Assembly: GCF_013374995.1 (NCBI RefSeq)
Contig: NZ_CP056030.1
Location: 4,744,501 to 4,808,500 of the forward strand
From: Pseudomonas eucalypticola
GTDB taxonomy: Bacteria > Pseudomonadota > Gammaproteobacteria > Pseudomonadales > Pseudomonadaceae
Length of the DNA: 64,000 bases
Reading direction: 5' to 3'
The position numbers and the translations under genes are program-made. Every line of letters begins with the position of its first letter. The stretch's first letter is position 1. Below are positions 37,113 through 55,373 of the stretch, piece by piece. The notes under the pieces were generated by a model. That model was not told where the DNA came from and searched no databases. It saw only the letters and a program-made list of their open reading frames with translations.

Positions 37113-39107
37113 TCAGAGATCGCTGCGCTGCTGCTGGTATATCCAGTCCACGATGTCGCCATCCGGTGCGTAACCACTCACCGTTTCGCGCAGCAGTTGG
37201 CGCACAGTCGCGTAATCATCCGCGTCGAGGGCGGCAAGCAGCTGTGCGAAGCGCTCCTTCAGCAGATCCCAATGAAGGTGGTCCTCGCGAGCACTCATGA
37301 TCATTGGGTGGCGGGTGGCCTCTACGTTGTCGCCTATCAGCAACTCTTCGTACAGCTTTTCTCCAGGCCGCAGGCCGGTAAACTCGATGGAGATATCGCC
37401 TTGAGGGTTACGTTCGGAGCGTACGCTGAGACCTGAGAGGTGGACCATTTTTTCCGCAAGCTCGGCAATGCGGACCGGCTCCCCCATGTCGAGCACGAAC
37501 ACGTCACCGCCCCGCCCCATGGATCCCGCCTGGATCACCAGTTGAGCGGCTTCTGGAATGGTCATGAAGTAGCGAGTGATTTTGGGGTGCGTGACCGTCA
37601 GGGGGCCACCTGTCCTGATTTGCTTGTAAAACAACGGAATGACGGAGCCTGACGACCCAAGCACATTGCCAAAGCGAACCATGGTGAAGCGGGTTTTGTT
37701 GACGCGCGCTACGTTGGCAGGATCACCGTACAATACCGGTGCCAGTTCCCTGCTGAGCGCCTGCAACGTCATTTCGGCGAGTCGCTTGGTGCTCCCCATG
37801 ATGTTCGTCGGCCTGACAGCCTTATCAGTGGAAATAAGCACGAAGTTGGCAACCCCTACCTGCAAGGCTGCTTGCGCAGTGTTCAGCGTGCCGATGACAT
37901 TGTTCAGCACACCCTCCGCGATGTTGTGCTCGACCATGGGAACATGTTTATAAGCAGCTGCATGATAAACGGTATCGATACCCCAGGTTGTCATCACATC
38001 CAGCAACTTGGCGGGATGACGGACCGAGCCCAGGATTGGAAGCAGCTTTACATTGAATGCCTCGCGGTTCTGACGCTGCTCCAATTCAGTGATGATGGTG
38101 TAAAGGTTGAATTCGCTGTGTTCGAACAGGACGAGCAAGCGGGGCTGGAGCGACAAGATTTGCCGACAAAGCTCCGAGCCGATGGACCCTCCCGCGCCGG
38201 TAACCATGACAGCCTTGCCCTTGACACAATGCTCGAGCAAATCGTCTTGGGCAGGCACCGCATCGCGTCCCAGCAGGTCGGCGATATCCACTTCCTGGAT
38301 ATCATCGACCTTGACCCGCCCGCTGGCGAGGTCAGTGAAGTTGGGAACACTGCGCACATGCAGGGGAAAGCCCTCGAGAAAGCCCAGAATCTCCCTGCGC
38401 CGAGCACGAGTGGTCGACGGCAGCGCCAGCAGCAACTCCTGAGCGCCGGTAACATCGATCATTTGCTGGATATGTTTGGGCTTGAACACCTGAAGCCCGG
38501 AGATGACCCGGTCAGCGATGCTGCTATCGTCATCGATAAATGCCACGGGGCGCATCACCCGCCCCATGCGCAGGGCGGCGACTAATTGGTTGCCTGCTAC
38601 CCCGGCACCGTAAATCGCGACCTTGGTCAGTCCTTCATCACGTGTCCGAAACGGGACGTAGTTGACCGACGTGAACCAGTCGCCCATAAAGTATTGCCGC
38701 ATCCCCAGGCGCAGGCCACCGATGATGACAAGGCTCAACCACCAATAATTGAAGATGATGGAGCGAGGGACCACGACTTCATGATTGCTGTACCAATAGA
38801 CAACTACCGCCAGGATCAGAGAGGACAAACTGACGGCTTTGACGATGGCGACCAACGCATCATTGCCGAAATAGCGCATCACGGCACGGTACATGCCGAA
38901 GCGAATGAACAACGGGATGGCAACCACTGGCGCACACAGGAACAGCCAGAAATGGACGCGCCACGGATTGTACATGTCCTCTATGCCGAGTCGGACCATG
39001 AACGCCAGCCACAGAGCCGCCCAAACCAGAAGGACATCTGTCCCCACCTGGAGTAGTCGCTTGGTGCGCCTTGGCAATGCAAGCAAGTAAGCTCTTAATT
39101 TGTCCAT
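37113..39107 (-). CDS. wbpM: UDP-GlcNAc C6 dehydratase / nucleotide-sugar epimerase, WbpM family
   Basis: The 664-residue inner-membrane enzyme has four N-terminal spans, a first Rossmann domain (VAIYGAGVAGNQLVAAL) and a C-terminal SDR domain. The latter has TGAGGSIGSELCRQI and the catalytic region STDKAVRPTNIMGSTKRLAE, where Met replaces the usual Tyr as in WbpM. It makes the 4-keto-6-deoxy intermediate for QuiNAc/FucNAc-type sugars needed for O-antigen priming. The ATG at 39107 is used. It marks one edge of the O-antigen locus. Confidence 0.95.
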   Translation of the reverse strand: MDKLRAYLLALPRRTKRLLQVGTDVLLVWAALWLAFMVRLGIEDMYNPWRVHFWLFLCAPVVAIPLFIRFGMYRAVMRYFGNDALVAIVKAVSLSSLILAVVVYWYSNHEVVVPRSIIFNYWWLSLVIIGGLRLGMRQYFMGDWFTSVNYVPFRTRDEGLTKVAIYGAGVAGNQLVAALRMGRVMRPVAFIDDDSSIADRVISGLQVFKPKHIQQMIDVTGAQELLLALPSTTRARRREILGFLEGFPLHVRSVPNFTDLASGRVKVDDIQEVDIADLLGRDAVPAQDDLLEHCVKGKAVMVTGAGGSIGSELCRQILSLQPRLLVLFEHSEFNLYTIITELEQRQNREAFNVKLLPILGSVRHPAKLLDVMTTWGIDTVYHAAAYKHVPMVEHNIAEGVLNNVIGTLNTAQAALQVGVANFVLISTDKAVRPTNIMGSTKRLAEMTLQALSRELAPVLYGDPANVARVNKTRFTMVRFGNVLGSSGSVIPLFYKQIRTGGPLTVTHPKITRYFMTIPEAAQLVIQAGSMGRGGDVFVLDMGEPVRIAELAEKMVHLSGLSVRSERNPQGDISIEFTGLRPGEKLYEELLIGDNVEATRHPMIMSAREDHLHWDLLKERFAQLLAALDADDYATVRQLLRETVSGYAPDGDIVDWIYQQQRSDL

Positions 39108-39663
39108 AGATCCGTCAGCCAACCGCCTATTCCGTTATATGCCTCATGCATCGTAGTCCACAGTAGCCCCTGCGGCATGAAATTCCTATCCCCGCCAAGC
39201 TGTTGCGGCGACCACCCTGATCGTCGCCATTTTTCCATCGCCGGTTGAGCCTGTCCACAGGCTGCCGCCCTCGCTCCAGCGCAAAAGCGTAAGCCATTTT
39301 TTCGGACAACAAGAACCGGGCCAATCAGGCGCATTACGCGAGTTGGAAGCCGTCAGGCACCACGTGCCGCAACATTTGTTGACGAGATGCCACACCCTAT
39401 GCCGTCAACAGGCTGGTCTGCTGCGCTACCATTTGCCCGGGCGACTTGCGCCTGACTGCCATTCACTCGGCAAGTTCCACAAACCGTGAAAAATCTTATC
39501 GCTCACGTAAAGAGCAAATCTCGTTATGATCAACGCAGCCACGGCGCTGAAGAGTGCCGACGCTAAATGCAATTGATTAATACTCGCACCGCGAGATACC
39601 ACGTTTTACCCGGCATTTACCGACCGACCCTGCGGCGGGACACAAAAAAGGCATGACAGGCAA
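39108..39663. other. Intergenic region between divergent wbpM and GT2 genes
   Basis: About 555 bp without a believable gene. It is clearly more AT-rich towards the right (39480-39660), as expected of a divergent promoter for wbpM and the O-antigen glycosyltransferases. I found no JUMPstart/ops element and no tRNA. Open frames here lack family features. Confidence 0.6.
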
Positions 39664-40596
39664 ATGACAAGCAATATCGCAGAGGTCGCGGTTCTGCTCT
39701 GCACCTTCAATGGTGAACAGTTTCTAGACGAACAGTTGCGTTCAATCGTGCAGCAGACGCACCCGCGATGGACCCTCTACGTCTCCGACGACGGCTCTAC
39801 CGATGCAACGCTCGCTATCTTGCGTGCCTATCAGCAGCGCCTTGGCGCCGAACGGCTTGTAATAATGAACGGCCCCAGGGGCGGGTTCGGAAAAAATTTC
39901 ATGTCCCTGGTCGGCAACAAGAGCCTCGCGGCCGATTATTACGCGTTCTGCGATCAAGACGACTTGTGGTTCCCGGACAAATTGGAGCGCGGCATTCGCG
40001 CGTTGGAAGCACTGCCTGCCGCAGAACCTGGCCTGTACTGCTCCCGGACCCGGCTGATCGACGAACAACGTCGGCATATTGGCTATTCTCCGCTCTTCAA
40101 TCGATCACCAAGCTTCAGCAATGCACTGGTCCAGAGCATCGCCGGCGCCAACACCATGCTCATCAACGATGCTGCACGCAACCTCCTGTGCCTGGTTGAT
40201 GAGAGTGCCCCGATCGTCGCGCATGACTGGCTGACCTACATGATTGTCTGTGGCTGTGGCGGGACCACTATTTTTGATCCGACCCCATCGATCGATTACC
40301 GCCAGCACAGCGGCAATCTGATAGGCGCGAATTCAAGCATCCGCCAGCGTCTGGAGCGCCTGGGGAAGATGCTCACAGGGCGGTTCAGTCATTGGAGCGA
40401 ACAAAATATTGTCGCGCTGGGGAATATCAGGCCTTTTTTGAGCCCGGCAAGTGCCCATATCTTGCAGCAATTCGAAACAGCCCGAAGAAGCCCACTGGCA
40501 CGACGGATATGCCTGATGCAGAAAGCCGGTGTATATCGGCAAACGCTACAGGGGAATATCACCTTGCTGATTGCAGCCACCTTGAACAAGATCTGA
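39664..40596 (+). CDS. GT2 glycosyltransferase (rhamnosyltransferase-like)
   Basis: The 310-residue enzyme has a GT-A fold: AVLLCTFNGEQFLDEQLRSI, VSDDGSTDATL with the first Asp, FCDQDDLWFPDKL with the metal-binding DxD-like motif, and HDWLTYMIVCG with the acceptor acid. It is in the same subfamily as the GT2 at the other end of the locus (SDQDDLWHPDKL, DYRQHP.N.VGAN). It probably adds an early or adaptor sugar of the O-antigen in the cytoplasm. The donor is inferred, not shown. Confidence 0.9.
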   Translation: MTSNIAEVAVLLCTFNGEQFLDEQLRSIVQQTHPRWTLYVSDDGSTDATLAILRAYQQRLGAERLVIMNGPRGGFGKNFMSLVGNKSLAADYYAFCDQDDLWFPDKLERGIRALEALPAAEPGLYCSRTRLIDEQRRHIGYSPLFNRSPSFSNALVQSIAGANTMLINDAARNLLCLVDESAPIVAHDWLTYMIVCGCGGTTIFDPTPSIDYRQHSGNLIGANSSIRQRLERLGKMLTGRFSHWSEQNIVALGNIRPFLSPASAHILQQFETARRSPLARRICLMQKAGVYRQTLQGNITLLIAATLNKI

Positions 40597-41069: not shown

Positions 41070-41168
41070 ATGAATGCAACCCCTCTCGCCACCCCTGAGG
41101 TCACTTCCTTTCAGCCAAGCGTTTCTGACATCTGCCATACCCCGGCCATGCCCCGGGGGCTGCAATGA
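41070..41168 (+). CDS. Possible 32-codon leader ORF coupled to wzm
   Basis: An ATG at 41070, with TGGAGAC eight bases before it, opens 32 codons (MNATPLATPEVTSFQPSVSD...) and its stop overlaps the wzm ATG as ATGA. It could be a leader peptide coupling translation to wzm, or the original wzm N-terminus separated by a frameshift. No product is known. Confidence 0.35.
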   Translation: MNATPLATPEVTSFQPSVSDICHTPAMPRGLQ

Positions 41169-41992
41169 ATCCGCATCTCGCCCCCCCATCAAGCCCAATC
41201 AGCATGGTGCGCAGCCTGTGGACCAACAGGCAACTGATTGGGCAAATGACCAAGCGAGAGGTCATTGGACGGTATCGCGGCTCAGTCATGGGCCTGGCCT
41301 GGTCATTCTTCAACCCGGTCTTGATGCTGGCCGTTTATACCTTCGTCTTCTCGGAAATTTTCAACTCTCGCTGGGCGGGCATGGACCCTGGCAAAGGCGG
41401 TTTCGCCATACTGCTCTTCGTCGGCATGATCGTGCACGGGGTGTTCGCAGAGTGCGCCAACCGCTCGCCGTCCCTGATCATGTCCAACGCCAACTACGTG
41501 AAGAAAGTGCTGTTCCCTATCGAAATACTGCCGGTCATCTCTCTCGGCTCGGCGATTTTCCACGGCTGCATCAGCCTCATCGTGCTGTTGCTGGCACAAC
41601 TGGCGCTCGCCCATACACTCTGCTGGACCGCCGTGTTCTTCCCGCTCGTACTGATCCCGTTGATTCTGGGGACCCTGGGCATCAGCTGGCTGCTCGCGTC
41701 GTTGGGCGTGTACCTGCGTGACGTGGGGCAAATCATCGGGGTATTGACGACCGTCCTCATGTTCTTGTCTCCGGTACTCTACCCCATCGCCTCCCTTCCA
41801 GAGGTCTACCGCCCCTGGATGCAACTCAACCCGCTCACTTACATCATCGAGGAAAGCCGCAGCGTGTTGCTGATGGGCAATCTTCCGCAGTGGGATCATC
41901 TGGTCGTGGCCATGTTGGTAGGCGTGGTAATGGCCGCAGCGGGCTTCTGGCTCTTTCAAAAAACTCGCAAGGGGTTTGCCGATGTCCTCTGA
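41165..41992 (+). CDS. wzm: O-antigen ABC exporter, permease subunit
   Basis: The 275-residue ABC-2 type permease has six membrane spans. The cytoplasmic N-terminal segment MTKREVIGRYRGSVMGLAWSFFNP and the loop TYIIEESRSVLLMG are characteristic of Wzm. With Wzt it moves completed undecaprenyl-linked polysaccharide across the inner membrane. The ATG at 41165 is used; MVRSLW at 41204 is an alternative. It overlaps wzt by 11 bp, and a possible leader ORF overlaps its start. Confidence 0.93.
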   Translation: MNPHLAPPSSPISMVRSLWTNRQLIGQMTKREVIGRYRGSVMGLAWSFFNPVLMLAVYTFVFSEIFNSRWAGMDPGKGGFAILLFVGMIVHGVFAECANRSPSLIMSNANYVKKVLFPIEILPVISLGSAIFHGCISLIVLLLAQLALAHTLCWTAVFFPLVLIPLILGTLGISWLLASLGVYLRDVGQIIGVLTTVLMFLSPVLYPIASLPEVYRPWMQLNPLTYIIEESRSVLLMGNLPQWDHLVVAMLVGVVMAAAGFWLFQKTRKGFADVL

Positions 41993-43343
41993 TGACTTCG
42001 CGATCAGCGTCCAAGATGTCTCGAAGTGCTTCTACACCTATGAGAAACCATCAGACCGCTTGAAACAATCCATTGTGCCGAGGCTGCAACGGTTCCTCGG
42101 CGACAAGGTGACCAGCTACGGCAAAGAGTTCTGGGCGCTGCGCAATGTTTCATTCGATGTACAGAAAGGTGAGACCGTCGGCATCGTTGGCAGAAACGGT
42201 TCGGGCAAGTCGACCTTGCTTCAAATCATTTGCGGCACGTTGATGCCCACCACTGGCCAGATAGCGACTCAGGGCAGAATTGCCGCACTGCTGGAACTGG
42301 GGTCGGGTTTCAACCCCGAGTTCAGTGGCCGTGAAAACGTGTACCTCAATGGCGCCGTGCTTGGTTTGAGCAAAGACGAAATTGATGACCGCTTCGATGC
42401 GATTGCCGGCTTCGCTGACATTGGCGAGTTCATCGATCAACCCGTCAAAGCCTATTCCAGTGGTATGGCGGTGCGGTTGGCCTTCGCCGTCCAGGCCCAG
42501 GTGGACCCCGAGATCCTCATCGTCGACGAAGCACTTTCCGTCGGTGATGCGCGCTTCCAAGCCAAATGCTTCGAGCGCTTGAGGCAACTGAAGGAAAACG
42601 GCACCAGCATTCTGCTGGTAACCCACGCCAGCGAGCAGGTCGTTACCCATTGCAACCGGGCCATCCTGCTGGATCGTAGCCGAGTGGAAATGATCGGTAG
42701 CTCACGACCGGTCGTGAACCGTTACCTGGACATCCTGTTCGGGCGGGAGAAACGTCCCGAGGCGCTCAGCCCTCCCGACGCTGACACGCTTAGCACGGAA
42801 GCCCGCGAGCTCAGCCCTGCAGACCCTGTGCTGGATTTCAATACCGACGTTTTCTCGACAAGGATTGGGTACAATCCCCATGAGTATCGCTGGGGTGACG
42901 GGGGCGCAACCATCCTCGACTACCACCTTTCGGCCAACGGTCGTGAGTTTCCCAATAGCGTGGAATCAGGTGAAGAGGTTGTGCTCCAGGTAGCTGTGCG
43001 CTTCAACCGTATGATCGTCAATCCCATCCTGGGCTTTACCCTCAAGACCAAGGAGGGGGTGACCGTCTACGGCACCAACTCTTTCATGCTGGAGTGTGAC
43101 GGCGTGCAGAGCATAGGTGCCGCCGGCAGCCACGCCAAGGCATGCCTGCGGTTTGCCGCGCGACTGGGTTCAGGCGACTTTTTCATTTCGCTGGGACTGG
43201 CTTCCCGCGAAGGAGAGGAGATCGTGCCGCACGACCGGCGCTATGACTCACTGCACTTCGTAGTAGCACCAACACCTAAATTGCTCGGCCTGATTGATCT
43301 GGCTGTCTCAATGGAAATTGATCAGGTGAATGAGAATGTTTGA
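41982..43343 (+). CDS. wzt: O-antigen ABC exporter, ATPase with carbohydrate-binding C-terminal domain
   Basis: The roughly 453-residue protein has an ABC ATPase domain: Walker A GRNGSGKST near residue 70, signature YSSGMAVRLAFA, Walker B ILIVDEAL. Its C-terminal beta-sandwich (from about residue 290) carries the Wzt-C motif YNPHEYRWGDGGA. In E. coli O8/O9a that domain recognises the chain-end modification before export. Its presence implies that this O-chain also carries a terminal cap, which fits the methyltransferase domain encoded by the next gene. Confidence 0.94.
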   Translation: MSSDDFAISVQDVSKCFYTYEKPSDRLKQSIVPRLQRFLGDKVTSYGKEFWALRNVSFDVQKGETVGIVGRNGSGKSTLLQIICGTLMPTTGQIATQGRIAALLELGSGFNPEFSGRENVYLNGAVLGLSKDEIDDRFDAIAGFADIGEFIDQPVKAYSSGMAVRLAFAVQAQVDPEILIVDEALSVGDARFQAKCFERLRQLKENGTSILLVTHASEQVVTHCNRAILLDRSRVEMIGSSRPVVNRYLDILFGREKRPEALSPPDADTLSTEARELSPADPVLDFNTDVFSTRIGYNPHEYRWGDGGATILDYHLSANGREFPNSVESGEEVVLQVAVRFNRMIVNPILGFTLKTKEGVTVYGTNSFMLECDGVQSIGAAGSHAKACLRFAARLGSGDFFISLGLASREGEEIVPHDRRYDSLHFVVAPTPKLLGLIDLAVSMEIDQVNENV

Positions 43344-46300
43344 TCTGGAACAGCAAGGATACGTCCTGAACGCGCTCACCGGCATATGGGAGCGGGACGA
43401 CTATGCAGGCATCGCCTACAGCGATGGGGACACCACCGAAATCAAGCTTGGGAAGATTCTGCGCGAGGCCAGCGACCTATCGGCGCTCTCTTCTGAATTG
43501 CGGGAACACTGCACAGACTGGGCAACGCTTTATCACCTGAGTTCTGCTCGCGGAAACATCCTGCGCCCATTCGAGCAGTATCTGAATAGCGATATTCTGG
43601 AAATCGGTGCAGGTTGCGGCGCCATCAGCCGGTATCTCGGGGAGTGCGGGGGCAATGTTCTAAGCCTGGAGGGAAGCCCCCGCCGCGCGCAGATGGCTGC
43701 CAGCCGCACGCGCGACCTGGACAATGTCACCGTGTTGGCCGAACGGTTCGATGATTTCAAGACAGATCATCGCTTTGACGTCATCACGCTGATTGGCGTC
43801 CTTGAATACGCCAGCATGTTCAGTAATGCCGAAGACCCAGCGCTTGGCATGCTCGAACGTATCCGCAGCCTCCTCAAGCCCAATGGCCATCTGTTCATTG
43901 CCATCGAAAACCAGTTAGGGCTGAAATACTTCGCTGGCGCGCCGGAAGACCATTTGGGCGTGCCCATGTACGGCATCGAAGGCCGGTACCTGAAGGGTCA
44001 GCCAAAGACCTTTGGCCGCAAGGAACTTGCCGAGCTGATCAAGCGCGCAGGATTCGCGCAGTCTGAATTTCTGTCCCCAAGCCCCGACTACAAGTTACCC
44101 AACTCGATCACTACCGAAAGGGGGCTCGGCAGCAGAGACTTCGATGCCGCAGCGTTGGCCTGGCAGAATGTGAAGAAGGACCCGCAACTGCCTGGCGAAA
44201 CCTTTTTCAACCTTGAGCAGGCGTGGCCCGTCGTGATTGATAACGGGCTGGGCATGGACATGGCTAACTCGTTTCTGATCGCAGCGTCTCAGGACCTTCA
44301 GCCAACCGTTCCGGAAAATGTCCTCGCCTACCACTACAGCACTGGTCGGAAGACGTCCTATTGCAAGGAGTCGCGCTTTGTCGATACGGCGGACGGCATC
44401 GTGGTCAAATACCGACGCCTCGACTCACAGGAAGCTGCGGTAGCATCGCGCGGTTTCAACTATATCCTGCCGGAACAGGATCGCTACGTACGAGGACATG
44501 TTCTCTCGGAAGACTTCCTGGATATCGCCGCCACCCAGAATTGGACCATCGATGATTTCGGCGGCTTCGTCACCCAGTACATCCGCGCCCTCCAGGGCCT
44601 GCTTGCCCAACGCGGCGAGTCAGTAGAACTGAACGCCGTGGACGCGGTGCTGCCCGGTATCTTCCTGGACGCCGTACCACAGAATATCGTTATCAATGAT
44701 GAACACACTCCCTCGCTGATCGACATCGAATGGGAGGTCACCTCGGGGGTGTCCCTTGGTCACCTTCTGATGCGTGCATTGTTGTTGCTGATTGCGTCGG
44801 CAAATCCATTCGTCGCCAGCCCAGCGATGCCAAGCCGCCGTCAGTTCGTCATTGGCGTACTCAAGGCGGCTGGGCTTTCGGTCACGCACCGACAGTTGGA
44901 CAGCTACGTGGCACTGGAGGCTGAGTTCCAGGAAACCGTCACTGGCCGCGCTGCTGCTGAATTCCTGGACTGGGCACCGGACGAGCCCGTTCACCAGAAA
45001 AAACCCGTCACCCGGGCGGTGATGCACACCAAACTGTATTGCAGCGATGCGCAGGGCACTTTCTCCGAAGCATCCACGGCAACGGCCGAAGTGTTCCCAG
45101 GCAAACAAACGCTCAGCTTCGACCTTTCGAATTTCGAGCAGCCGTTGCGCACCATCCGCTTTGATCCGGTCGACACACGGATTTCCTTCTCGATCAATTA
45201 CATGCGCGTCATCAGTCACGGCGAGACGCTGTGGGCCTGGAGTGGCCGCCTGGACGAACTGAAAGGCGTCGCTGGCTTGATGCAGGTGGCTCGACCGGAT
45301 TATTCGGGCTTCTTTCTCAGCATGGACAGCGACCCCCACTTCGAATTGCCAATCGACCTCTCCACCCTGAGTGCCTTCACGCATCTGACCCTTGAGCTGG
45401 AGCTCGTCATTCATACCGACGAGCACGTCGCACAAGAGCTGAAACAGGGCAGCCATGAGGAAGTGAATAGCCCTCAGAAAGACCTGCACGCCCCGCTTCA
45501 GTTACTGTTGGGCATCAACAAGAAACTCAACAACCTGCTGACTGACCGAGAGGGCCGCATCAGGGAGCTGACAGCCGAGCTGGATCTGCGACAACAGCAC
45601 GGTGAACTCTTTGAATCGAACCTTAACACCAAGGGTGGGGGTGCAGATGCGCATCCGTCTCGGTCGACGGTTGCCGATTCCATCGTGCAGAACCTCATGG
45701 GTGAATACTCCAGGCAGATGAGCAAGCGCATTACAGACCTGCTCGCCGCAAAACAGCAACTTGACGAGCACTTCCGACAAGCGCTTGTCATTCATGGCAA
45801 CAACGCCGAATTGCCCGACGGTGTGCAACTGGGCCAGCAGAGCGTGATGAGCTTGATAGACATTGCCGTGCCAGGCGCTTCTGAAGACCTCGCGGAAAAC
45901 ACCTTGCTGCAAATCAGCGCGCCTGCGTGTAACGAGCAGGTCCGGCAGTTGCAAGCCGAAGTTGCCGCACTTCATCAACAGTTGCAGCAAATGCAGATCG
46001 AAAAGGATACGCATATCCATAATCTGAACCTGCATATCCTTGCGCTGGCCCGGTCCACGAGCTGGCGTATCACCCGACCATTGCGAGTATCCGTGCGCGG
46101 CGCCCGCATGATCAACGATGGCGCCAAGCTGCTACCCTCCATCGTTCGCCGCGGTGGCGGCGTCGGTGCCACCCTGCGCAAAGCTGCTCGCGTACTGAGG
46201 GCTCAGGGTGTGCAGGGTGTGATCGCACATTTGAACTGGTTTCGGAACAATACCTCGCTGGACCTCACGTCCCTTGAGCGCAAGGAAACCAGCGATCGCC

Positions 46301-48006
46301 ACGACTACACCACGTGGGTCGAGCACTATGACACCCTTGATGACACCACTCGCTGGAAGCTGAAGGAGCAGATTCGCCTGTGGCCGAAAACCCCGGTCAT
46401 CTCGATAATCATGCCCGTGTACAACCCGCCCATTGCCCTGCTGGAAGAGGCTGTCGCCAGTGTGCAGAACCAGCTCTACAGCAAATGGGAGCTCTGCATT
46501 GCCGATGATGCGTCGACGAACCCGGAGGTTGCCGAATACCTCAAGAGCGTAAGCAAGAAAGACGCTCGCATAAAAGTCAGTTTCAGGGAAAAGAACGGCC
46601 ACATCTCGGAGGCAAGCAATTCGGCCCTGGCGTTGGCGACTGGCGCATTTGTCGCGCTGATGGACAACGATGACTTGATTGCGGAGCACGCGCTCTATTG
46701 GATTGCCAAGACGATCAACGAAAATCCCCAGGCCGGCATCATCTACTCGGATGAGGATAAAATTGATAACAATGGCGTCCGTTCAGCGCCTTACTTCAAA
46801 TCCTCCTGGAACAAGTTCCTGTTCCGCTCGCAGAACATGATTTGTCATTTGGGCGCCTATCGTCGCGACTTGGTCAATCAGCTGGGAGGTTTCCGTGTAG
46901 GTTTCGAAGGCTCTCAGGATTACGACCTGGCGCTGCGATGCAGTGATGCGATTGACCCGTCAGCCATTATTCATATTCCTCGCGTCCTCTATCACTGGCG
47001 CATGCACTCGGGTAGCACGGCGCTGGCCGGCAATGAAAAACCCTACGCCGCACTGGCCGGCGTACGCGCTCTGGACGAGCATCTGCAACGTATCGGCTGC
47101 GCAGGCCATACGGAGTTATTGCCGACAGGCATGTATCGTGTGCATTACGAGGTTCCATCGCCCGCGCCGCTGGTCAGCCTGGTGATACCGACCAAGAACG
47201 CCCACGCATTGGTGAAGCAATGCATTGATAGCATCATTGGCCTCTCGACTTACCCCGCCTACGAAATCATTTTGGTAGACAACGGTTCGGACGAGCCCGC
47301 TTCAATCGAATACTTCGAATCGTTGAAAAACGTGCCCAATGTGAGAGTCGTCCGCGATGACGGGCCGTTCAATTACTCGGCCATCAACAACCGCGCGGTC
47401 GAGATCGCCAATGGGGAGCTTGTCGGCCTGATCAATAATGACATCGAAGTCATCACGCCAGAGTGGCTGGATGAAATGGTGGCAATCGCTATGCAGCCGG
47501 GGGTCGGCGCAGTAGGTGCCAGGCTGTGGTACCCCGATGATCGCCTGCAGCATGGTGGCGTTGTCGTGGGCGTGGGTGGCGTTGCAGGCCACTCCCACAA
47601 ATATCTGCCTAAAGGTCACCATGGCTACTTTGGCCGCGCCGAACTGATTCAGGAGTTCTCGGCGGTAACTGCGGCTTGCCTGATCATCAAAAAGTCGATT
47701 TTCAACGAAGTTCATGGCTTGGACGAAGTCAACCTCTCCGTGGCATTCAACGATGTCGATTTTTGCCTGCGCGTTCAGGAAGCCGGCTATGTCAACGTCT
47801 GGACCCCGTACGCAGAGCTTTATCATCATGAGTCGGCGACACGCGGCCTTGAAGACACGCCAGCCAAGAAAGAACGCTTCACGAACGAAGTGTTATATAT
47901 GAAGGGGCGTTGGCCGAAGATTGAGCAGGACTATACCTACAACCCGAACCTGACCCTTGAGCATGAGGATTTTGGCTTGGCTTGGCCGCCGCGGGTGACG
48001 CCGTAG
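43330..48006 (+). CDS. Giant methyltransferase / kinase-like / coiled-coil / dual-GT2 fusion (O-chain synthesis and capping)
   Basis: In this 1558-residue protein I see, in order: a SAM methyltransferase (about residues 60-300; motif I DILEIGAGCGAISRYL at 88); a kinase-like region (about 330-520) with VVKYRR around Lys360, a catalytic-loop-like FLDAVPQNIVI (Asp447, Asn452) and LIDIEWE (Asp465); a beta-rich module (about 560-700); coiled-coil stretches (about 720-775 and 865-905) ending in SWRITRPLR; and two GT2 domains (about 1022-1250 with MDNDD, and 1279-1550 with LINNDIE). The order methyltransferase, kinase, coiled coil mirrors E. coli WbdD, which caps O9a chains and sets their length. 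Here the polymerising transferases appear fused on. It overlaps wzt by 14 bp. The kinase call is the least certain part. Confidence 0.85.
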   Translation: MRMFDLEQQGYVLNALTGIWERDDYAGIAYSDGDTTEIKLGKILREASDLSALSSELREHCTDWATLYHLSSARGNILRPFEQYLNSDILEIGAGCGAISRYLGECGGNVLSLEGSPRRAQMAASRTRDLDNVTVLAERFDDFKTDHRFDVITLIGVLEYASMFSNAEDPALGMLERIRSLLKPNGHLFIAIENQLGLKYFAGAPEDHLGVPMYGIEGRYLKGQPKTFGRKELAELIKRAGFAQSEFLSPSPDYKLPNSITTERGLGSRDFDAAALAWQNVKKDPQLPGETFFNLEQAWPVVIDNGLGMDMANSFLIAASQDLQPTVPENVLAYHYSTGRKTSYCKESRFVDTADGIVVKYRRLDSQEAAVASRGFNYILPEQDRYVRGHVLSEDFLDIAATQNWTIDDFGGFVTQYIRALQGLLAQRGESVELNAVDAVLPGIFLDAVPQNIVINDEHTPSLIDIEWEVTSGVSLGHLLMRALLLLIASANPFVASPAMPSRRQFVIGVLKAAGLSVTHRQLDSYVALEAEFQETVTGRAAAEFLDWAPDEPVHQKKPVTRAVMHTKLYCSDAQGTFSEASTATAEVFPGKQTLSFDLSNFEQPLRTIRFDPVDTRISFSINYMRVISHGETLWAWSGRLDELKGVAGLMQVARPDYSGFFLSMDSDPHFELPIDLSTLSAFTHLTLELELVIHTDEHVAQELKQGSHEEVNSPQKDLHAPLQLLLGINKKLNNLLTDREGRIRELTAELDLRQQHGELFESNLNTKGGGADAHPSRSTVADSIVQNLMGEYSRQMSKRITDLLAAKQQLDEHFRQALVIHGNNAELPDGVQLGQQSVMSLIDIAVPGASEDLAENTLLQISAPACNEQVRQLQAEVAALHQQLQQMQIEKDTHIHNLNLHILALARSTSWRITRPLRVSVRGARMINDGAKLLPSIVRRGGGVGATLRKAARVLRAQGVQGVIAHLNWFRNNTSLDLTSLERKETSDRHDYTTWVEHYDTLDDTTRWKLKEQIRLWPKTPVISIIMPVYNPPIALLEEAVASVQNQLYSKWELCIADDASTNPEVAEYLKSVSKKDARIKVSFREKNGHISEASNSALALATGAFVALMDNDDLIAEHALYWIAKTINENPQAGIIYSDEDKIDNNGVRSAPYFKSSWNKFLFRSQNMICHLGAYRRDLVNQLGGFRVGFEGSQDYDLALRCSDAIDPSAIIHIPRVLYHWRMHSGSTALAGNEKPYAALAGVRALDEHLQRIGCAGHTELLPTGMYRVHYEVPSPAPLVSLVIPTKNAHALVKQCIDSIIGLSTYPAYEIILVDNGSDEPASIEYFESLKNVPNVRVVRDDGPFNYSAINNRAVEIANGELVGLINNDIEVITPEWLDEMVAIAMQPGVGAVGARLWYPDDRLQHGGVVVGVGGVAGHSHKYLPKGHHGYFGRAELIQEFSAVTAACLIIKKSIFNEVHGLDEVNLSVAFNDVDFCLRVQEAGYVNVWTPYAELYHHESATRGLEDTPAKKERFTNEVLYMKGRWPKIEQDYTYNPNLTLEHEDFGLAWPPRVTP

Positions 48007-48169: not shown

Positions 48170-49438
48170 ATGCGCAAAGACCATTACCCTTTGATTAAAG
48201 ACCGCCCTGTCAGACTGACGCTAGCTTCTGCTTTCGTCGCTCTGGTCGTCCTCTGGTCACTCACCATCGCCTTCCACGGCGCCCCTGATGAATCGACCCA
48301 CTTCTTCCTTCTGGATTACCTGTACACAAACCACCACTTCCCGCTTCATACCGTTATCGATCAGCCCTTTCATGGGACGGTGAGCCTCCATACCTGGGCC
48401 CCCGGCGATTTCTGGTATCACGGACTGCCGTTTCCGCATGTGCTTGGCGGCCTCGTGACCACCTATGTCGGCAGTTTCATCCTCCCGCAGAACCTGCTTT
48501 ATTTAGGCGCCAGGGCCTTCAATTGGCTATTGGCAGGGTTGTTCTTCTCGGCGATCTATCGAATTGGGACATCCCAGAACCTGGGCACGAAACGCGCCGC
48601 GCTCATAGCCGGGATCATTTGCCTTATCCCACAGGTTACCTTCATTTTTGCCTACTTCAATAGCGATGCGTATGGCATTACCGTCATAGCACTGGCTTTG
48701 GCGGCACTACTGGAATACAAAGCAACACCGACATTGAAGACCGCGCTCGCCGCTGGATTCTTCATTGGTTTGACGTGCTTGGCAAAAATATACTTCCTGC
48801 CAAGCCTGGTTTTCTTCGCGGTGACGCTTACATTACAAACAGTCTGTGTGAAGCCTTCCAGAACACGCCTGCTGGCACTCATTCTATTGACCGCCTTTGT
48901 CACATGCCTACCCATGCTCGCGTATACCTACCATCTTTTTGGTGAAGTCAGTGGTGTTTCCGGCCAGGCTGAGTTCGTCAACATGCATCGCGAAAGCGCA
49001 GCCGCAGCCGGTGGCACCTGCTACTTGATGTGCAAGAACGGCTTGGTAGATCTCCACACCTTGATCCCATGGCTTACTACGTCAGCCAAAAGCTACTTCT
49101 CATTGACGGGGTGGATGAGCATCGCACTGTCTCAAACCCACTACATCATCGCACTGGCGGCGATGACAGGGCTCGTCCTGGCAACACTATTCCTGCTCAT
49201 CAGGAAGCCTGCCAACTTTGCGCTCAAGGACTTCAACCTGAACTTCGCCATCCCCAGCATCATGATCCTGGGTTTATTTCCAGCGATCGTTCTATTTAGC
49301 ATCATCGGCTCTCAGCTGGCGATGCCGCAACCTCAGGGGCGATACCTTTTCGTGACAATCCCCTTCCTTGGCTACTTGATTGCAATGCTGGTTTCCACTC
49401 ACCCGCTCACTCACTACCAGGCGGGTAAAACTCAATGA
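48170..49438 (+). CDS. Polytopic membrane protein, GT-C / DUF2142-like
   Basis: The 422-residue protein has about ten spans. Its first periplasmic loop begins GAPDESTHFFLLDYLY, like the acidic DE motif that follows span 1 in GT-C glycosyltransferases and the PDEPxHF motif of DUF2142 proteins. GT-C enzymes use polyprenyl-linked sugars on the periplasmic side. With gtrA and a gtrB-like gene nearby, this is the best candidate for the serotype-specific transferase. The sequence is visibly more AT-rich than its flanks. Its stop overlaps the next start (ATGA). Confidence 0.75.
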   Translation: MRKDHYPLIKDRPVRLTLASAFVALVVLWSLTIAFHGAPDESTHFFLLDYLYTNHHFPLHTVIDQPFHGTVSLHTWAPGDFWYHGLPFPHVLGGLVTTYVGSFILPQNLLYLGARAFNWLLAGLFFSAIYRIGTSQNLGTKRAALIAGIICLIPQVTFIFAYFNSDAYGITVIALALAALLEYKATPTLKTALAAGFFIGLTCLAKIYFLPSLVFFAVTLTLQTVCVKPSRTRLLALILLTAFVTCLPMLAYTYHLFGEVSGVSGQAEFVNMHRESAAAAGGTCYLMCKNGLVDLHTLIPWLTTSAKSYFSLTGWMSIALSQTHYIIALAAMTGLVLATLFLLIRKPANFALKDFNLNFAIPSIMILGLFPAIVLFSIIGSQLAMPQPQGRYLFVTIPFLGYLIAMLVSTHPLTHYQAGKTQ

Positions 49439-50022
49439 GCCTCAACACTGGAAAATTGAAGAACATCCTGTTGGCCGCTGCTTTTATCTGGTTATGCACA
49501 GCCAACATCAGTGCACTCCACCGTAATTTCATGGAAGCCCAGAATATTGGCCTGACGCCTGCTGTCAAGCTTCTGGACACACTATCAAATCATAACGTGA
49601 GTGCTTGGCAACGCGAAAACGCCGGGATTTCCTCCGCACTGCTCGCAACCCACTTACGTATTTCGGGTGATACCCTGAGCATCACACCTTCAACTTCGAC
49701 CGAGCCCGTCAAGCTCTCGATCGACCATTATGAAAATAATGGAAATACTTACACTGCCACCGGTTGGGCCTATGCCAAAGGCGCTGATAATGCGCAGATA
49801 GTACTCATTTACAAAGGGAAAACGCTTGCCGTTTCCCCCCTAAACGGCGCACGCCCCGATGTTGCTGTTGCATTAGGCACCCCACAGGCGCAAACATCTG
49901 GCTTCAGTCTCCAGTTCAAAAGCGAGTCGCCGGTCGAGCAGTGCGATATCCGTTATTATGTAATTTCCGAAACACTGACCGCTTACTCAGCCCCCCCTAT
50001 TTGCAGCAATCTGAATCATTAA
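49435..50022 (+). CDS. Membrane-anchored protein, possible C-terminal part of the GT-C enzyme
   Basis: The 195-residue protein begins with one span (ILLAAAFIWLCTANISALH) and then a beta-rich, probably periplasmic domain without a recognised family. The span resembles the last helix of DUF2142/GT-C proteins, and the gene is coupled by ATGA to the polytopic gene. The pair may therefore be a split version of one protein. Codon composition is AT-rich like its partner, suggesting shared acquisition. Function is unknown. Confidence 0.65.
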   Translation: MSLNTGKLKNILLAAAFIWLCTANISALHRNFMEAQNIGLTPAVKLLDTLSNHNVSAWQRENAGISSALLATHLRISGDTLSITPSTSTEPVKLSIDHYENNGNTYTATGWAYAKGADNAQIVLIYKGKTLAVSPLNGARPDVAVALGTPQAQTSGFSLQFKSESPVEQCDIRYYVISETLTAYSAPPICSNLNH

Positions 50023-50031
50023 GGATCCGAC

Positions 50032-51117
50032 ATGTCGAATATACCTCTTTTTTCTGCAAAAGCCGTTAACGCCGGCCTGGATTTTCAAACGCCTATTAAC
50101 ACGGTATTGAATCGCCATTGGTACATCATGGGCGAAGAGGTGGCGAGCTTCGAGGGGGAGTTTGCCAATTACGTGGGCGTATCAAACTGCATCAGCGTAG
50201 CCAACGGTTCCGAGGCCCTCGAACTCGCCTTGAAAGCCCTTGGCGTGAGTAGTGATTCAAAAGTGATAGCGGTTGCCAATGCAGGGTTCTATAGCAGTAC
50301 AGCGATTCATGCCGTGGGCGCTACCCCACTCTATGTAGACATCGACGCCGCTCTGTTGACCTTGTGCCCACAAAAGCTCCGCGAAGCCTTGGCCCAGAAG
50401 CCGGCGGCGATCATCGTCACGCATTTGTACGGTCAACTCGCCAATATCGAAGAGATCATCGCAATAGCTGACGCTGCCGGTGTTCCTGTGCTGGAAGATT
50501 GCGCCCAGGCCCACGGCGCTCGTCGCAACGGCAAGCAGGCGGGTAGCTTCGGGACGATTGCGTGTTTCAGTTTTTACCCCACGAAAAACCTCGGCGCGCT
50601 GGGCGACGGTGGTGCGATTGTTACCAACGATGACACCCTGGCTGGCAAGGTTCGCCAACTTCGCCAATACGGCTGGTCGAGCAAGTACACCGTTGCAGTG
50701 CCAGGTGGCCGCAATAGCCGGCTGGACGAGATGCAGGCCGCCATCTTGCGGGTCAAACTTCCACACCTGGACCAATGGAACGCGCAACGCCGCGCTATCG
50801 CAGCACGCTACAACAGTGCGTTCAAGAGCCTGCCGTTGCAGTTGCCGGCTTCGGTCGGTGAGGACTACGTCGCACATCTGTATGTAGTGCGTAGTGATGA
50901 CCGCACCGGCCTCGCGGCCTTCTTGAAGGAGCAAGGTGTCACTACCGACATCCATTACCCTATCGCTGACCACCATCAACCTGCCTACCAGTCTTCCTGT
51001 ACCCTGCCGGTTACCGAAAGCGCATGCGATCAGGTAATATCATTCCCTTGTTTCCCTGGCCTTACCGACGAGGAAGTCGGGCGCGTCATCGATGCCGTAA
51101 CACGGTTTTTTTCATAA
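50032..51117 (+). CDS. Sugar 3-aminotransferase, DegT/DnrJ/EryC1 family (FdtB/QdtB-like)
   Basis: The 361-residue PLP enzyme has ANGSEALELALKALG, VLEDCAQAHGARRNGK with the cofactor Asp, and the PLP-Lys motif FSFYPTKNLGALGDGG. It fits enzymes that aminate C3 of dTDP-3-keto-6-deoxyhexoses to give the precursor of Fuc3NAc or Qui3NAc. The matching ketoisomerase and acetyltransferase are fused in the gene at 52060. Sugar stereochemistry cannot be told from sequence. Confidence 0.9.
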   Translation: MSNIPLFSAKAVNAGLDFQTPINTVLNRHWYIMGEEVASFEGEFANYVGVSNCISVANGSEALELALKALGVSSDSKVIAVANAGFYSSTAIHAVGATPLYVDIDAALLTLCPQKLREALAQKPAAIIVTHLYGQLANIEEIIAIADAAGVPVLEDCAQAHGARRNGKQAGSFGTIACFSFYPTKNLGALGDGGAIVTNDDTLAGKVRQLRQYGWSSKYTVAVPGGRNSRLDEMQAAILRVKLPHLDQWNAQRRAIAARYNSAFKSLPLQLPASVGEDYVAHLYVVRSDDRTGLAAFLKEQGVTTDIHYPIADHHQPAYQSSCTLPVTESACDQVISFPCFPGLTDEEVGRVIDAVTRFFS

Positions 51118-51127
51118 GGAGATAGGC

Positions 51128-52063
51128 TTGCTCACCCTGGTCATACCGGTTTACAAAAACGAAGGGTCGATCCCTGACCTACTGGCGGCTATCACAGGAT
51201 TGAACCAGAAGCTCGATGGCGAGCTGGAAGTGGTGTTCGTGGTTGATGGTAGCCCCGATCGGTGTTACGAGCTGTTGAGCAAGGCCCTGCCGTCACAGCA
51301 ATTTGTTTCGAAACTGATATTGCTGTCGCGTAACTTCGGCTCTTTCATGGCGATACGTACCGGACTGCAGCACGGTACCGGGACTCGATTCGCGGTGATG
51401 GCGGCTGATCTGCAGGAGCCACCGGAACTCGTCCTGGAGATGGATCGCATTCTTCGTACCGAGCCGATTGATGTCGTGGTGGGCGCCAGAGAGGGTCGGA
51501 AGGACCCGCTCCTCTCGCGCACGGCTTCGCGGATTTTCTGGGGTATGTATCGCCGTTATGTCGTACCTGAGATTCCGCCAGGCGGCGTCGACATGTTTGG
51601 CTGCAATGCCGCTTTCCGCGATACCTTGTTGACGCTCGACGAACGCCATAGCTCCCTGATTGCGCAAATCTTCTGGCTTGGCTACCGCCGCAAATGCATC
51701 ACCTACTCACGCAATGAACGTGAGCACGGGAAATCAGCCTGGACTTTCCGCAAGAAGGTCAACTACCTGATGGACAGCGTGTTCTCTTTCACCGACCTGC
51801 CCATTCGCCTGCTCATACGCGTGGGCGGTGGCGGTGCGGCACTTGCGGCGCTGCTGGGCCTGTTTATTGCGGCCGCACGGCTGCACGGTATGATCCAGGT
51901 CCCCGGCTACGCAATGATCATGCTGGCGATCACTTTTTTGGGGTGCGCCAACCTGCTTGGCCTGGGCATCGTCGGGTCGTACGCCTGGCGCACCTACGAA
52001 AACACCAAGAACCGACCTTTGGCTATCCCAATGCGTGTGGATAGCTTCGGAGCAAAGCAATGA
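51128..52063 (+). CDS. gtrB: Polyprenyl-phosphate glycosyltransferase (GtrB-like)
   Basis: The 311-residue enzyme has a GT2 domain of the dolichol-phosphate-mannose-synthase type ([40 protein letters not shown] with the DxD-like site) and two C-terminal spans (about residues 235-255 and 265-290). It would load a nucleotide sugar onto undecaprenyl phosphate on the cytoplasmic face. The start is TTG at 51128 behind AAGGAGA. It lies in a tight run with the sugar-synthesis genes and gtrA. Confidence 0.9.
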
Positions 52064-53010
52064 CTGAAGCGGCTCGTGATTTTTTTGTCCATTCGCATGC
52101 GCTATGTGAAAGCCAGAACATCGGTAAAGGTACCCGAGTCTGGGCATTTGCCCACATCCTTCCAGAAGCGAAGCTCGGCGCCGACTGCAATGTGTGTGAC
52201 CAGGTCTTCATCGAGAACGATGTGGTCATCGGTGACCGAGTGACCATCAAATGCGGCGTGCAGGTGTGGGACGGTATCGAGATTGAGGACGATGTATTCA
52301 TCGGCCCTAACGTGACGTTCACCAACGACCGCTTTCCGCGCAGCAAAGTGTACCCTGAGACCTTCGCCAAGACGGTCATTCGCAAGGGCGCATCCCTTGG
52401 CGCCAACTGCACCATTCTGCCTGGCATTGTCATCGATACCAATGCAATGGTCGGCGCCGGCGCCGTCGTCACCCGCTCGGTTCCGCCAAACGCCATCGTC
52501 GTGGGCAACCCTGCCAAGATCATTGGCTATGTCAACGCCAAACCTGGCAGCGCCCAGCAGGAAGCCGTTTCAGGTCAAGCCCAGCCGGTGATCCAAACGT
52601 CCGTGGATCAGGTCACCCTGCACTCACTGACGGAGGTAACCGATATCCGCGGTAGCCTGTCGGTAGGTGAGTTCGACCGAGCCATTCCCTTCAACGCCGA
52701 GCGCTACTTCCTGGTATACGACGTCCCCACCGCGGAGACGCGAGGCGAGCATGCGCATCGCAAATGCCACCAATTCCTCATCGCGGTGAAAGGCACTGTG
52801 CACGTCGTGGCGGATGACGGCGTGAACCGCGAAGAGTTTATTCTCGATAAGCCGAACACAGGCATCCATCTGCCGCCAATGACGTGGGGCATACAATACC
52901 GTTACTCGAGCGACGCGGTATTACTCGTATTTGCCTCGCACTATTATGATTCGTCGGACTATATCCGCAATTACGACGAGTTCATCAAACTGAAGAACAG
53001 CAGCCGCTGA
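52060..53010 (+). CDS. Fused sugar N-acetyltransferase and dTDP-4-keto-6-deoxyhexose 3,4-ketoisomerase (WxcM-like)
   Basis: Residues about 1-170 form a left-handed beta-helix acetyltransferase (hexapeptide runs such as [19 protein letters not shown] and [25 protein letters not shown]). Residues about 185-316 are a cupin of the FdtA/WxcM ketoisomerase family ([44 protein letters not shown]). The fusion supplies the first and last steps of dTDP-Fuc3NAc or dTDP-Qui3NAc synthesis from dTDP-4-keto-6-deoxyglucose, with the aminotransferase at 50032 in between. It overlaps both neighbours. Confidence 0.93.
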
Positions 53011-53418: not shown

Positions 53419-54426
53419 TTACTCGCGACTGCCTGCCTTGAAGCGATATGCCAAGAGGCAGAGCGGCGCGTAGGCTAGCGCCAACCCTGCAATACCATAG
53501 GCAGGGTTGAACGCCGCCCAGGCCGCGATCGGCAACAACCAGCACACGTTGATAACCACCACGCCCATCGTCACCGTGCGGTGGCTGACGTAGTGGCGCG
53601 AAGCGAATTGGTACGCGTGGCTGCGGTGAGCCTGATACACCTTGTCCCCACGCAACAGCCGATGCAACAAAGTCCACGTGGCATCAACCACGAACACCCC
53701 TAGCAATATCAACCAACTCCACAGGAAAGCGCTATTGGACCAGGCCCCCTGCAAGGCCAGCGCACCAATGATCAACCCGAGGAAACCGCTGCCAGCATCG
53801 CCCATGAAAATTTTCGCGGGCGGAAAATTCCAGATCAGGAAGCCGGCCACCGCCGTGCACATCACCAATGGGTATCCGATCAATTCAGTATGGCCGGTCA
53901 CCCCATAGATCAGGCAAGCACCGGCACACACGAAAATCGCTTCGGCGCTTGCCAGGCCATCAATGCCATCCATGAAGTTATAAAGGTTCAGCACCCAGAC
54001 GAGGTAGACCAGTGCCAACCCTGCCCCTGACCAACCAAGGTCGATCTGACCCCACGGCGTCGCCAGCGGAGCCAGGCCGCCCAGCCAGAACAGCGCCCAC
54101 CCCGCCGCCACGAAATGCCCCAGCAAGCGCCAGCGCGCAGCAATGTGCCCATGGTCATCTGCGAAACCGAGAATCGACACCAGTACCCCCGCTCCCAGAT
54201 AGGCTATTGCAGAAGACTCGCTGGCGAGCCCGACCGACGCCAGTGCCGGCACGGCGAGCAGGAATGTCACGACGATGGAAACACCACCCCCGCGAGGTGT
54301 AGGAATCGAGTGAGAGCTTCGTTCATTGGGCACGTCTATCAAGCTTCGTGCCAATGCGTATCGCCGCAGCAGCCCGGTCATGGCGAACGACAGAAGGAGA
54401 ACGGCGACGCAAATCCAAATGATCAT
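53419..54426 (-). CDS. wbpL: Undecaprenyl-phosphate sugar-1-phosphate transferase
   Basis: The 335-residue protein has about ten to eleven spans and belongs to the MraY/WecA/WbpL family: VPNERSSHSIPTPRGGGVSI near the start, LNLYNFMDGIDGLAS, the catalytic-loop FMGDAGSGFLG, and RSHAYQFASRHYVSH near the end. It transfers a HexNAc-1-phosphate (FucNAc or QuiNAc type) to undecaprenyl phosphate and so primes O-antigen assembly. The ATG at 54426 overlaps the epimerase stop (ATGA). Confidence 0.95.
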   Translation of the reverse strand: MIIWICVAVLLLSFAMTGLLRRYALARSLIDVPNERSSHSIPTPRGGGVSIVVTFLLAVPALASVGLASESSAIAYLGAGVLVSILGFADDHGHIAARWRLLGHFVAAGWALFWLGGLAPLATPWGQIDLGWSGAGLALVYLVWVLNLYNFMDGIDGLASAEAIFVCAGACLIYGVTGHTELIGYPLVMCTAVAGFLIWNFPPAKIFMGDAGSGFLGLIIGALALQGAWSNSAFLWSWLILLGVFVVDATWTLLHRLLRGDKVYQAHRSHAYQFASRHYVSHRTVTMGVVVINVCWLLPIAAWAAFNPAYGIAGLALAYAPLCLLAYRFKAGSRE

Positions 54427-55373
54427 GCTCTGGTCTGGCTCATGAAGTAATGCACAGTACGATTTATCCCTTCGACCGTTCGCATGGGTGGTGTCCAGCC
54501 CAGCAGGTTGTTGTTCTTTTCGATGTCCACCTGCAAGGACGCCGTTAGTCGCTGAAGTACACCACGTCTGCCCAGCAGCCCGGCAGCCCACCCCAGCATC
54601 CAGACAGGCACGGGCAGCAAGCGAGCCCGCCTGCCCATGGCATCGGCGATAACAGCGAGCAACCGTGAGGTAGAAATGGGTTCTTGATCACTCGCCAGGA
54701 ATATCTGATTGGCCGCTGCCGGGTGCTGTAGGCAGACACGCACAAGGTCCACGAGGTTATCCAGATAGACCAGACTGCGGCGGTTATCTATGGCGCCCAG
54801 AGGCAATGGCACGCCGCGGCGCACCCACCGCAGCATCGCCAGGAAGTTAGCCTTAACCCCGGGCCCGTACACCAATGGGGGACGGATGATTACGACCTGC
54901 ATTCCGCCCTCGGCAGCCAACGCCATTAAGGCGGTTTCCGCCTCCGATTTGGAAATGCCATAGGCGTCCTGAGGCGCCGGTGCATCGTCGGCATAAAACT
55001 TCCGGCCCGGGAGGGTCACCTCACCGTTCACCTTGATGGAACTGAGATAGATGAAACGTTTCACACCGCTCGCTTGGGCATGTCGAGCCAGCGCCAGTGT
55101 GGCGTCGACATTGGCTTGCCGAAAGGCCGCTAACGCATCACCCGCTGTTTCATGCATCACATGAACTCGCGCCGCGCAGTGAACGACCACATCGATATCG
55201 GTCAGAATGGGCAGACAATCAGGCCGGGCCAGGTCGAATTGGCGAGCAGGACTGTGCGCATCACCCCGCACGCAAGAAATGATACTGAGCAATGGTATCT
55301 GCTCGAGGGCGCGCACTATCGCCCCCCCGACAAACCCCGTGGCACCGGTCACCAGTACAGCTGTGGAACTCAT
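54423..55373 (-). CDS. NAD-dependent nucleotide-sugar epimerase/reductase (WbpV/WbpK-like)
   Basis: The 316-residue extended SDR has the NAD motif TGATGFVGGAIVRAL, VVVHCAARVHVM, SSIKVNGE, and YGISKSEAE as the catalytic Tyr-Lys pair. With WbpM it would complete the UDP-FucNAc or UDP-QuiNAc used by WbpL; WbpK- and WbpV-type enzymes reduce the 4-keto group. It overlaps both the GT2 upstream and wbpL downstream by 4 bp, so all three are co-translated. Confidence 0.92.
   Translation of the reverse strand: MSSTAVLVTGATGFVGGAIVRALEQIPLLSIISCVRGDAHSPARQFDLARPDCLPILTDIDVVVHCAARVHVMHETAGDALAAFRQANVDATLALARHAQASGVKRFIYLSSIKVNGEVTLPGRKFYADDAPAPQDAYGISKSEAETALMALAAEGGMQVVIIRPPLVYGPGVKANFLAMLRWVRRGVPLPLGAIDNRRSLVYLDNLVDLVRVCLQHPAAANQIFLASDQEPISTSRLLAVIADAMGRRARLLPVPVWMLGWAAGLLGRRGVLQRLTASLQVDIEKNNNLLGWTPPMRTVEGINRTVHYFMSQTRA

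Follow-up and report, generated by a model that had tools for sequence, protein, structure and literature searches.

The window analysed here is a stretch of 64,000 nucleotides from Pseudomonas eucalypticola (GCF_013374995.1, NZ_CP056030.1:4,744,501-4,808,500, forward strand). An open reading frame check shows a single ATG frame at 43330-48006 (+) that encodes a protein of 1558 residues. The start of this gene overlaps the end of wzt by 14 bases, and wzt overlaps wzm in turn. At a Pfam threshold of E <= 0.01, the protein matches a methyltransferase at residues 85-243 and GT2 glycosyltransferases at residues 1025-1185 and 1280-1502; nothing is matched between residues 320 and 1000, the kinase-like segment included. 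The domain order is methyltransferase, kinase-like domain, presumed beta-rich module, variable spacer and two GT2 glycosyltransferases (Table 1). The Pfam matches and frame coordinates agree with the initial annotation, which had placed a methyltransferase and two GT2 domains in one frame directly after a Wzt with a C-terminal binding domain. In Wzt, residues 285-445 match PDB 2r5o (E 3.7e-27), the C-terminal domain of Wzt from E. coli O9a, in which the chain is capped with a methyl phosphate.

When 7994 candidates were scored against residues 1-900, at least 1114 proved to be relatives (E <= 0.001). Of these, 120 were listed, one of them a copy of the window protein; they are 1412-1644 residues long and carry methyltransferase and GT2 Pfam accessions, in line with the suggestion that the same domain order be sought in other genomes; where an organism is named, it is Pseudomonas. 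A second search, from an enterobacterial relative, scored 7990 candidates and found at least 1367 relatives, of which 120 were listed. It yielded P0139, a Klebsiella pneumoniae protein of 1414 residues that carries Y28, Y66, G91, G93, E112, Y158 and D441. P0139 ends where GT module 2 of ORF6(O7) from K. pneumoniae O7 is published to end, and from this length and the seven matching residues, rather than from an accession, we infer that P0139 is ORF6(O7). BLASTP aligns the window protein with P0139 at 43% identity over residues 3-708 and at 35% over residues 875-1550 (identities by segment are in Table 1). All seven published residues of ORF6(O7) align with identical residues: the S-adenosylmethionine (SAM)-site residues Y28, Y66, G91, G93, E112 and Y158 pair with Y30, Y68, G93, G95, E114 and Y160, and the catalytic D441 aligns with D447. 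N452, D465, E467 and W468 are also common to P0139. Because the homology is full-length and these published residues are identical, the window protein is, by sequence, a member of the ORF6(O7)-type polymerase-terminators.

According to Kelly et al. (2024, PMC11231755), ORF6(O7) consists of a methyltransferase, a kinase domain of 223 residues that had not been annotated, an immunoglobulin (Ig)-like carbohydrate-binding module (CBM), a coiled coil and two GT2 modules. The same report states that the enzyme phosphorylates and methylates the chain end, that a D441A kinase mutant is inactive, and that the GT modules are two rhamnosyltransferases that polymerise rhamnose (PMC11231755). The window protein resembles it in domain order, catalytic and SAM-site residues, the two C-terminal GT2 modules and the presence of wzm-wzt in the cluster. 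It is unlike ORF6(O7) in the spacer, where the P0139 stretch facing window residues 701-880 is only about 48 residues long.

The most probable reading, at roughly 85%, is that the protein is a fused polymerase-terminator of an ATP-binding cassette (ABC) transporter-dependent O-polysaccharide, of the K. pneumoniae O7 ORF6 type. Gene order, domain order, homology and residue conservation were observed here, and the kinase, methyltransferase and rhamnosyltransferase activities come from the O7 homologue; on this basis we infer the window protein's own activities, its sugar, the exact cap and the ruler function. At the membrane, the two C-terminal GT2 modules would lengthen a chain that is carried on a lipid and probably made of L-rhamnose. 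The kinase-like domain in the N-terminal half would then phosphorylate the non-reducing end, and the methyltransferase would methylate the end phosphate, so that growth stops. By keeping polymerase and capping sites apart, the spacer probably imposes a lower limit on chain length. The adjoining Wzt would read the cap with its C-terminal domain and admit the chain to export via Wzm, and side-chain sugars of the 3-acetamido-3,6-dideoxyhexose type may be added later.

The fusion of polymerase and terminator in one polypeptide, as first proposed for this gene, is upheld by the full-length homology to ORF6(O7), for which the activities have been reported (PMC11231755). It is not a novel design, since ORF6(O7) is already a proven polymerase-terminator. 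A known design is extended here, as ORF6(O7) and WbbB both combine polymerisation with termination. The initial annotation was therefore largely right in what it observed and mostly right in its functional reading, and the novelty of the fusion was not borne out. WbbB of K. pneumoniae O12 also holds polymerase, ruler and terminator in one polypeptide (PMC11231755), but its terminator is a Kdo transferase, whereas the window protein begins with a methyltransferase and a kinase-like domain.

The comparison with WbdD and WbdA of E. coli O9a, drawn at the outset, holds for the way of working and probably not for kinship. As in WbdD, a methyltransferase, a kinase-like domain and a presumed coiled coil would cap an ABC-exported chain here; however, WbdA is a separate polymerase, whereas the window GT2 modules share a frame with the terminator. 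The O7 paper terms the O7 and WbdD methyltransferase-kinases distinct and their kinases quite different (PMC11231755). None of the 34 PDB hits of a family profile (E <= 0.001) is a chain named WbdD, an absence that is weak evidence. A WbdD structure is available (PMC3482155). WsaE of Geobacillus stearothermophilus likewise joins a methyltransferase to two rhamnosyltransferases, and its gene overlaps wzt (PMC2943079). Compared by description only, it differs in having three domains, with no kinase described, and in serving an S-layer glycan (PMC2943079). The Lcin_0519 kinase-methyltransferase family of Legionella often has a coiled coil and Wzt and Wzm neighbours; its holders include P. syringae and K. 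pneumoniae, and its enzymes are described as predicted (PMC9758233). Two other Legionella loci, one in L. gratiana and one in L. santicrucis, give matches at 45% with Wzm-Wzt alongside, Lcin_0519 itself being compared by description. Tailocin resistance arises in P. syringae pv. actinidiae on disrupting wzm, wzt and a gene labelled by the authors as likely wbdD (PMC12608077).

The spacer differs in length among family members. From residue 560 to 1023 it ranges over 319-547 residues in 120 sequences (the window protein and 119 homologues, with P0002, a copy of the window protein, dropped), and residues 701-850 contain no invariant residue in this set. In the adjoining connector, D893, H897, N900, S909, P917 and R919 are invariant or almost so. 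The DNA encoding the ruler was delimited in 80 loci, the best of 369 relatives from a scan of named contigs and therefore leaning towards the window's relatives, as the part that lies between the methyltransferase-kinase match and the first GT2 match, or as 400 residues where no GT2 match was present. Tandem arrays with a period of at least 15 base pairs (bp), counted without overlap, have a density of 0.276 per kb within the ruler (21 arrays, in 19 loci) and of 0.016 per kb in the remainder of these loci (20 arrays). The period is a multiple of 21 bp in 15 of the 21 ruler arrays, compared with 3 of 20 elsewhere (Fisher p 4e-4, indicative only because arrays were pooled across related loci). 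Six ruler arrays have copies that match at 95-100%; the loci concerned (L077, L078, L086, L103, L111, L112) have repeats of 21, 42 or 126 bp, all multiples of 21 bp, or one heptad. The enrichment of the spacer in heptad-multiple tandem DNA repeats, seen at the level of the family, may be a new observation. Nothing on repeat variation in such rulers appeared in the titles or abstract openings of the papers listed by the literature searches, which is no proof that none exists.

On balance, these repeats somewhat more probably reflect a general repetitiveness of coiled-coil genes, with no selection on chain length. The window gene itself has no such tandem array. Of 168 sequences, 160 had all anchors and gave 67 disjoint nearest pairs, 20 of them of equal length; length differences in the 47 pairs with unequal spacers show no excess of multiples of 7 (5/47) or 18 (5/47, p 0.12), and none of 16 moduli was significant. 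Against general repetitiveness stand the near-identical copies of the six arrays and the higher array density of the ruler, in a comparison confined to these terminator loci. The disjoint pairs also give no support to a spacer length that steps by 18 residues. Such steps were seen in 2 of the 9 clades listed (clades of four or more) and in non-independent pairs. Spacers of the P. syringae group (P0091, P0104, P0111, P0112, P0119, P0101, P0148) read as degenerate 18-residue repeats, and many lengths within two clades differ by multiples of 18.

Coiled-coil propensity was estimated with an ad hoc heptad score with self-chosen residue weights, which is not a standard coiled-coil program. On this score the peak falls within the 700-1010 spacer, which averages 17% of the length, in 94 of 120 sequences, and 87 of 120 spacers exceed 95% of their own shuffles. 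The coiled coil initially proposed is consistent with this signal in the family, but the window protein alone, with a peak at about 859-894, does not beat its shuffles. Its weak signal would suit a flexible linker without a ruler function, chain length being set by enzyme ratios or by the transporter. We consider such a linker unlikely in view of the family-level heptad signal, the enriched heptad-multiple repeats and the demonstration, by insertions and truncations, that the coiled coil of WbdD sets chain length (PMC5082667). In the preferred reading as a ruler, the spacer would set chain length in the window protein.

The kinase-like domain is marked by D447, N452, D465, E467 and W468, which are invariant in 120/120 sequences; in the 80 named loci all are again invariant except D465 (79/80). 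Invariance and the alignment of D447 with D441 uphold D447, N452 and D465 of the kinase motif named in the initial annotation. Its proposed kinase lysine, K360, is not supported, being Lys in just 2/120 sequences, the window protein among them, and in 13/80 loci. The conserved basic residues are R340 (120/120, 80/80) and K346 (120/120, 79/80). No sequence method gave the domain a significant link to a known kinase, whether by PDB profile or by Pfam: a 46-member profile of the segment matched one PDB chain at E <= 10, an unrelated old yellow enzyme (E 0.76), and Pfam matched 16 families, each in 1 of the 46 members (best E 0.0019); neither result is taken as kinship. An hhalign comparison with APH kinases was weak (score 20.5, E 0.038, probability 1.4%), with four control families scoring 12.1-14.3, and the APH alignment falls on the catalytic D..N and LDWE motifs. 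For the O7 kinase, too, its authors report that the sequence does not resemble kinases already known (PMC11231755). Frames with an APH-kinase domain match occur elsewhere: one of about 990 residues lies beside the rml genes (L140:5913-8882 (+); match at G000:C1:361089-361763), and the same search lists frames of 971-1016 residues in at least 13 other genomes.

It is quite improbable that the cap is a plain methyl ether, with the kinase-like domain structural or regulatory only: K. pneumoniae O5 chains end in methyl, with O3 chains ending in phospho-methyl (PMC11231755), WsaE produces a 2-O-methyl cap (PMC2943079), and the kinase domain is less conserved against P0139 (32%) than the methyltransferase (65%), but in 120/120 sequences the catalytic Asp, the Asn and the metal-site motif are unchanged, which is unexpected for a dead domain, and ORF6(O7) requires D441 (PMC11231755).

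Several points weigh against the assignment as a fused polymerase-terminator. The heptad peak of the window protein lies under the 95th percentile of 60 shuffles, and the kinase and CBM-like regions are just 32% and 17% identical to P0139. We know of no activity or O-chain structure for this strain. The ribofuranosyltransferase that is a separate partner enzyme in O7 was not recognised among the neighbours scanned with Pfam; therefore the repeat unit here probably differs from that of O7. Counted in favour are rmlB, rmlA, rmlC and rmlD for dTDP-L-rhamnose, which are clustered elsewhere in the genome. O-chains of P. syringae are in general rhamnans with side sugars.

The neighbouring genes are listed with the domains in Table 1, where the names WbpM and WbpL are presumptive. 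The aminotransferase and the WxcM-like gene downstream suggest an amino-deoxy side sugar, a further difference from O7. The genes at 48170-53010 resemble those that make an acetamido-dideoxyhexose side sugar and possibly transfer it outside the cytoplasm. Among the neighbours scanned with Pfam, no flippase was recognised.

Table 1. Genes around the fusion gene and segments of its 1558-residue product, with identities to P0139.
Feature	Coordinates	Strand	Evidence
WbpM-like nucleotide-sugar dehydratase	37113..39122	-	PF02719
GT2 glycosyltransferase, possible adaptor enzyme (putative role)	39664..40596	+	PF00535
wzm, ABC-2 permease	41165..41992	+	PF01061, E 3.4e-31
wzt, ATPase with C-terminal carbohydrate-binding domain	41976..43343	+	Wzt_C PF14524, E 6.9e-31
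Class I SAM methyltransferase, residues 1-320; Y30, Y68, G93, G95, E114, Y160	43330..44289	+	PF08242/PF13489; 65% identity
Kinase-like domain, residues 321-560; R340, K346, D447, N452, D465, E467, W468	44290..45009	+	Alignment to ORF6(O7), invariance, weak APH match; 32% identity
Presumed beta-rich module, residues 561-700, at the position of the Ig-like CBM of ORF6(O7)	45010..45429	+	17% identity over 130 aligned residues
Variable spacer, presumed coiled-coil ruler, residues 701-884	45430..45981	+	Length variation, family-level heptad signal; 15% identity (41 aligned residues)
Conserved connector from spacer to GT2 modules, residues 885-1010	45982..46359	+	D893, H897, N900, S909, P917, R919; 24% identity
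GT2 module 1, residues 1011-1265, DND at 1112-1114	46360..47124	+	PF00535; 36% identity to GT module 1
GT2 module 2, residues 1266-1558, and stop	47125..48006	+	PF13641; 38% identity to GT module 2
Membrane protein weakly resembling DUF2142/PMT_2, possible side-chain GT-C (putative role)	48170..49438	+	Sub-threshold Pfam matches
DegT-type sugar aminotransferase	50032..51117	+	PF01041; best PDB 7b0d, E 6.7e-91; QdtB 3frk, E 1.4e-79
GT2, polyprenyl-phosphate sugar transferase type	51128..52063	+	NF047588 and NF007986, both under cut-off
WxcM-like bifunctional acetyltransferase/3-keto isomerase	52060..53010	+	PDB 4mzu, E 1.3e-123; PF05523
WbpL-like initiating sugar-phosphate transferase	53419..54591	-	PF00953

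Across the 80 loci, the terminator half is joined to different polymerases or to none, beside a Wzt. It is joined to GT2 pairs in 30 loci and to other or unrecognised C-terminal parts in another 30, ends at <=800 residues in 18 and is cut by the contig in 2. A Wzt lies <=600 bp upstream in 74/80 loci, and a Wzt_C match is present in 71/80. Twelve proteins were scanned with Pfam for their C-terminal parts, 11 from the 30 "other" loci and the twelfth (L110) from the GT2 class. They carry WbsX and RgpF (L076, L081, L083), WbsX alone (L108), GT1 and RgpF (L122), GT2 with GT1/GT4-type domains (L092, L098, L118), one GT2 (L104), GT1 (L126), two GT2 with GT1 domains (L110), or nothing past the methyltransferase (L115). 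A tree of 82 terminators, built by a quick, short search, has several long branches and coarse class labels ("OTHER", "SPLIT"). On it the three classes need 12 changes (minimum possible 2) and the GT2 class at least 4, with the two contig-cut loci left out of the count. It has been remarked that some ORF6(O7) orthologues carry GT modules and others stop after the coiled coil (PMC11231755); the breadth of polymerase partners and the count of class changes are additions of the present analysis. Related terminators also lie on contigs binned as Micrarchaeota, Anaerolineaceae and Bacteroidetes (L111, L120, L082, L077), through wide transfer or mis-binned contigs.

These patterns suggest that capping and export are retained as polymerases are swapped, and that repeats make the ruler vary. 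A wider proposal, which we regard as less likely than not, is that the terminator is a portable end-capping cassette that moves together with Wzm-Wzt and was repeatedly joined to unrelated polymerases, and that the ruler is an evolvable tandem-repeat element that retunes O-chain length in register, possibly quickly where copies are near-identical. A specific co-evolution of Wzt-C with the terminator is not supported: in the 66 of 80 loci that have terminator, Wzt-C, Wzt-N and Wzm, terminator identity correlates with Wzt-C at rho 0.88, compared with 0.91 for Wzt-N and 0.86 for Wzm. Since Wzt-N and Wzm track the terminator equally well, shared kinship alone may explain the matched identities.

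Apart from the window's own genome, three of 229 genomes of the class (G113, G199, G250) contain Wzt-C-like domains at 37-41% identity, and all three also have a terminator match. The nearby match of G199 spans residues 15-323 only, and in G113 and G250 the two genes are on different contigs. Weaker Wzt-C matches (21-35%) occur in 14 other genomes of the class, and a long terminator match occurs without any Wzt-C match in four genomes (G076, G153, G179, G253). In the whole-protein search, 52 of 57 relatives match. Among the rows listed, the methyltransferase-kinase half (residues 3 to at least 700) is present in only three of 36 genus genomes (the window's own, G003 and G018), and the gene is therefore patchy within the genus; the remaining relatives in those rows match via the GT2 part or the methyltransferase alone. 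P. floridensis (L053/L054) and P. alliivorans (L056/L063) each have two loci, from different branches of the tree.

The analysis offers a mechanistic reading for a gene whose relatives are mostly labelled just "glycosyltransferase" in databases, and which is present, patchily, in many Pseudomonas species. O-chains in these bacteria are targets of phages and tailocins, and one protein that probably builds, measures and caps the chain makes such loci easier to interpret. If the proposal for the ruler is true, a gene that gains or loses DNA units of heptad-multiple size would thereby change its O-chain length in register.

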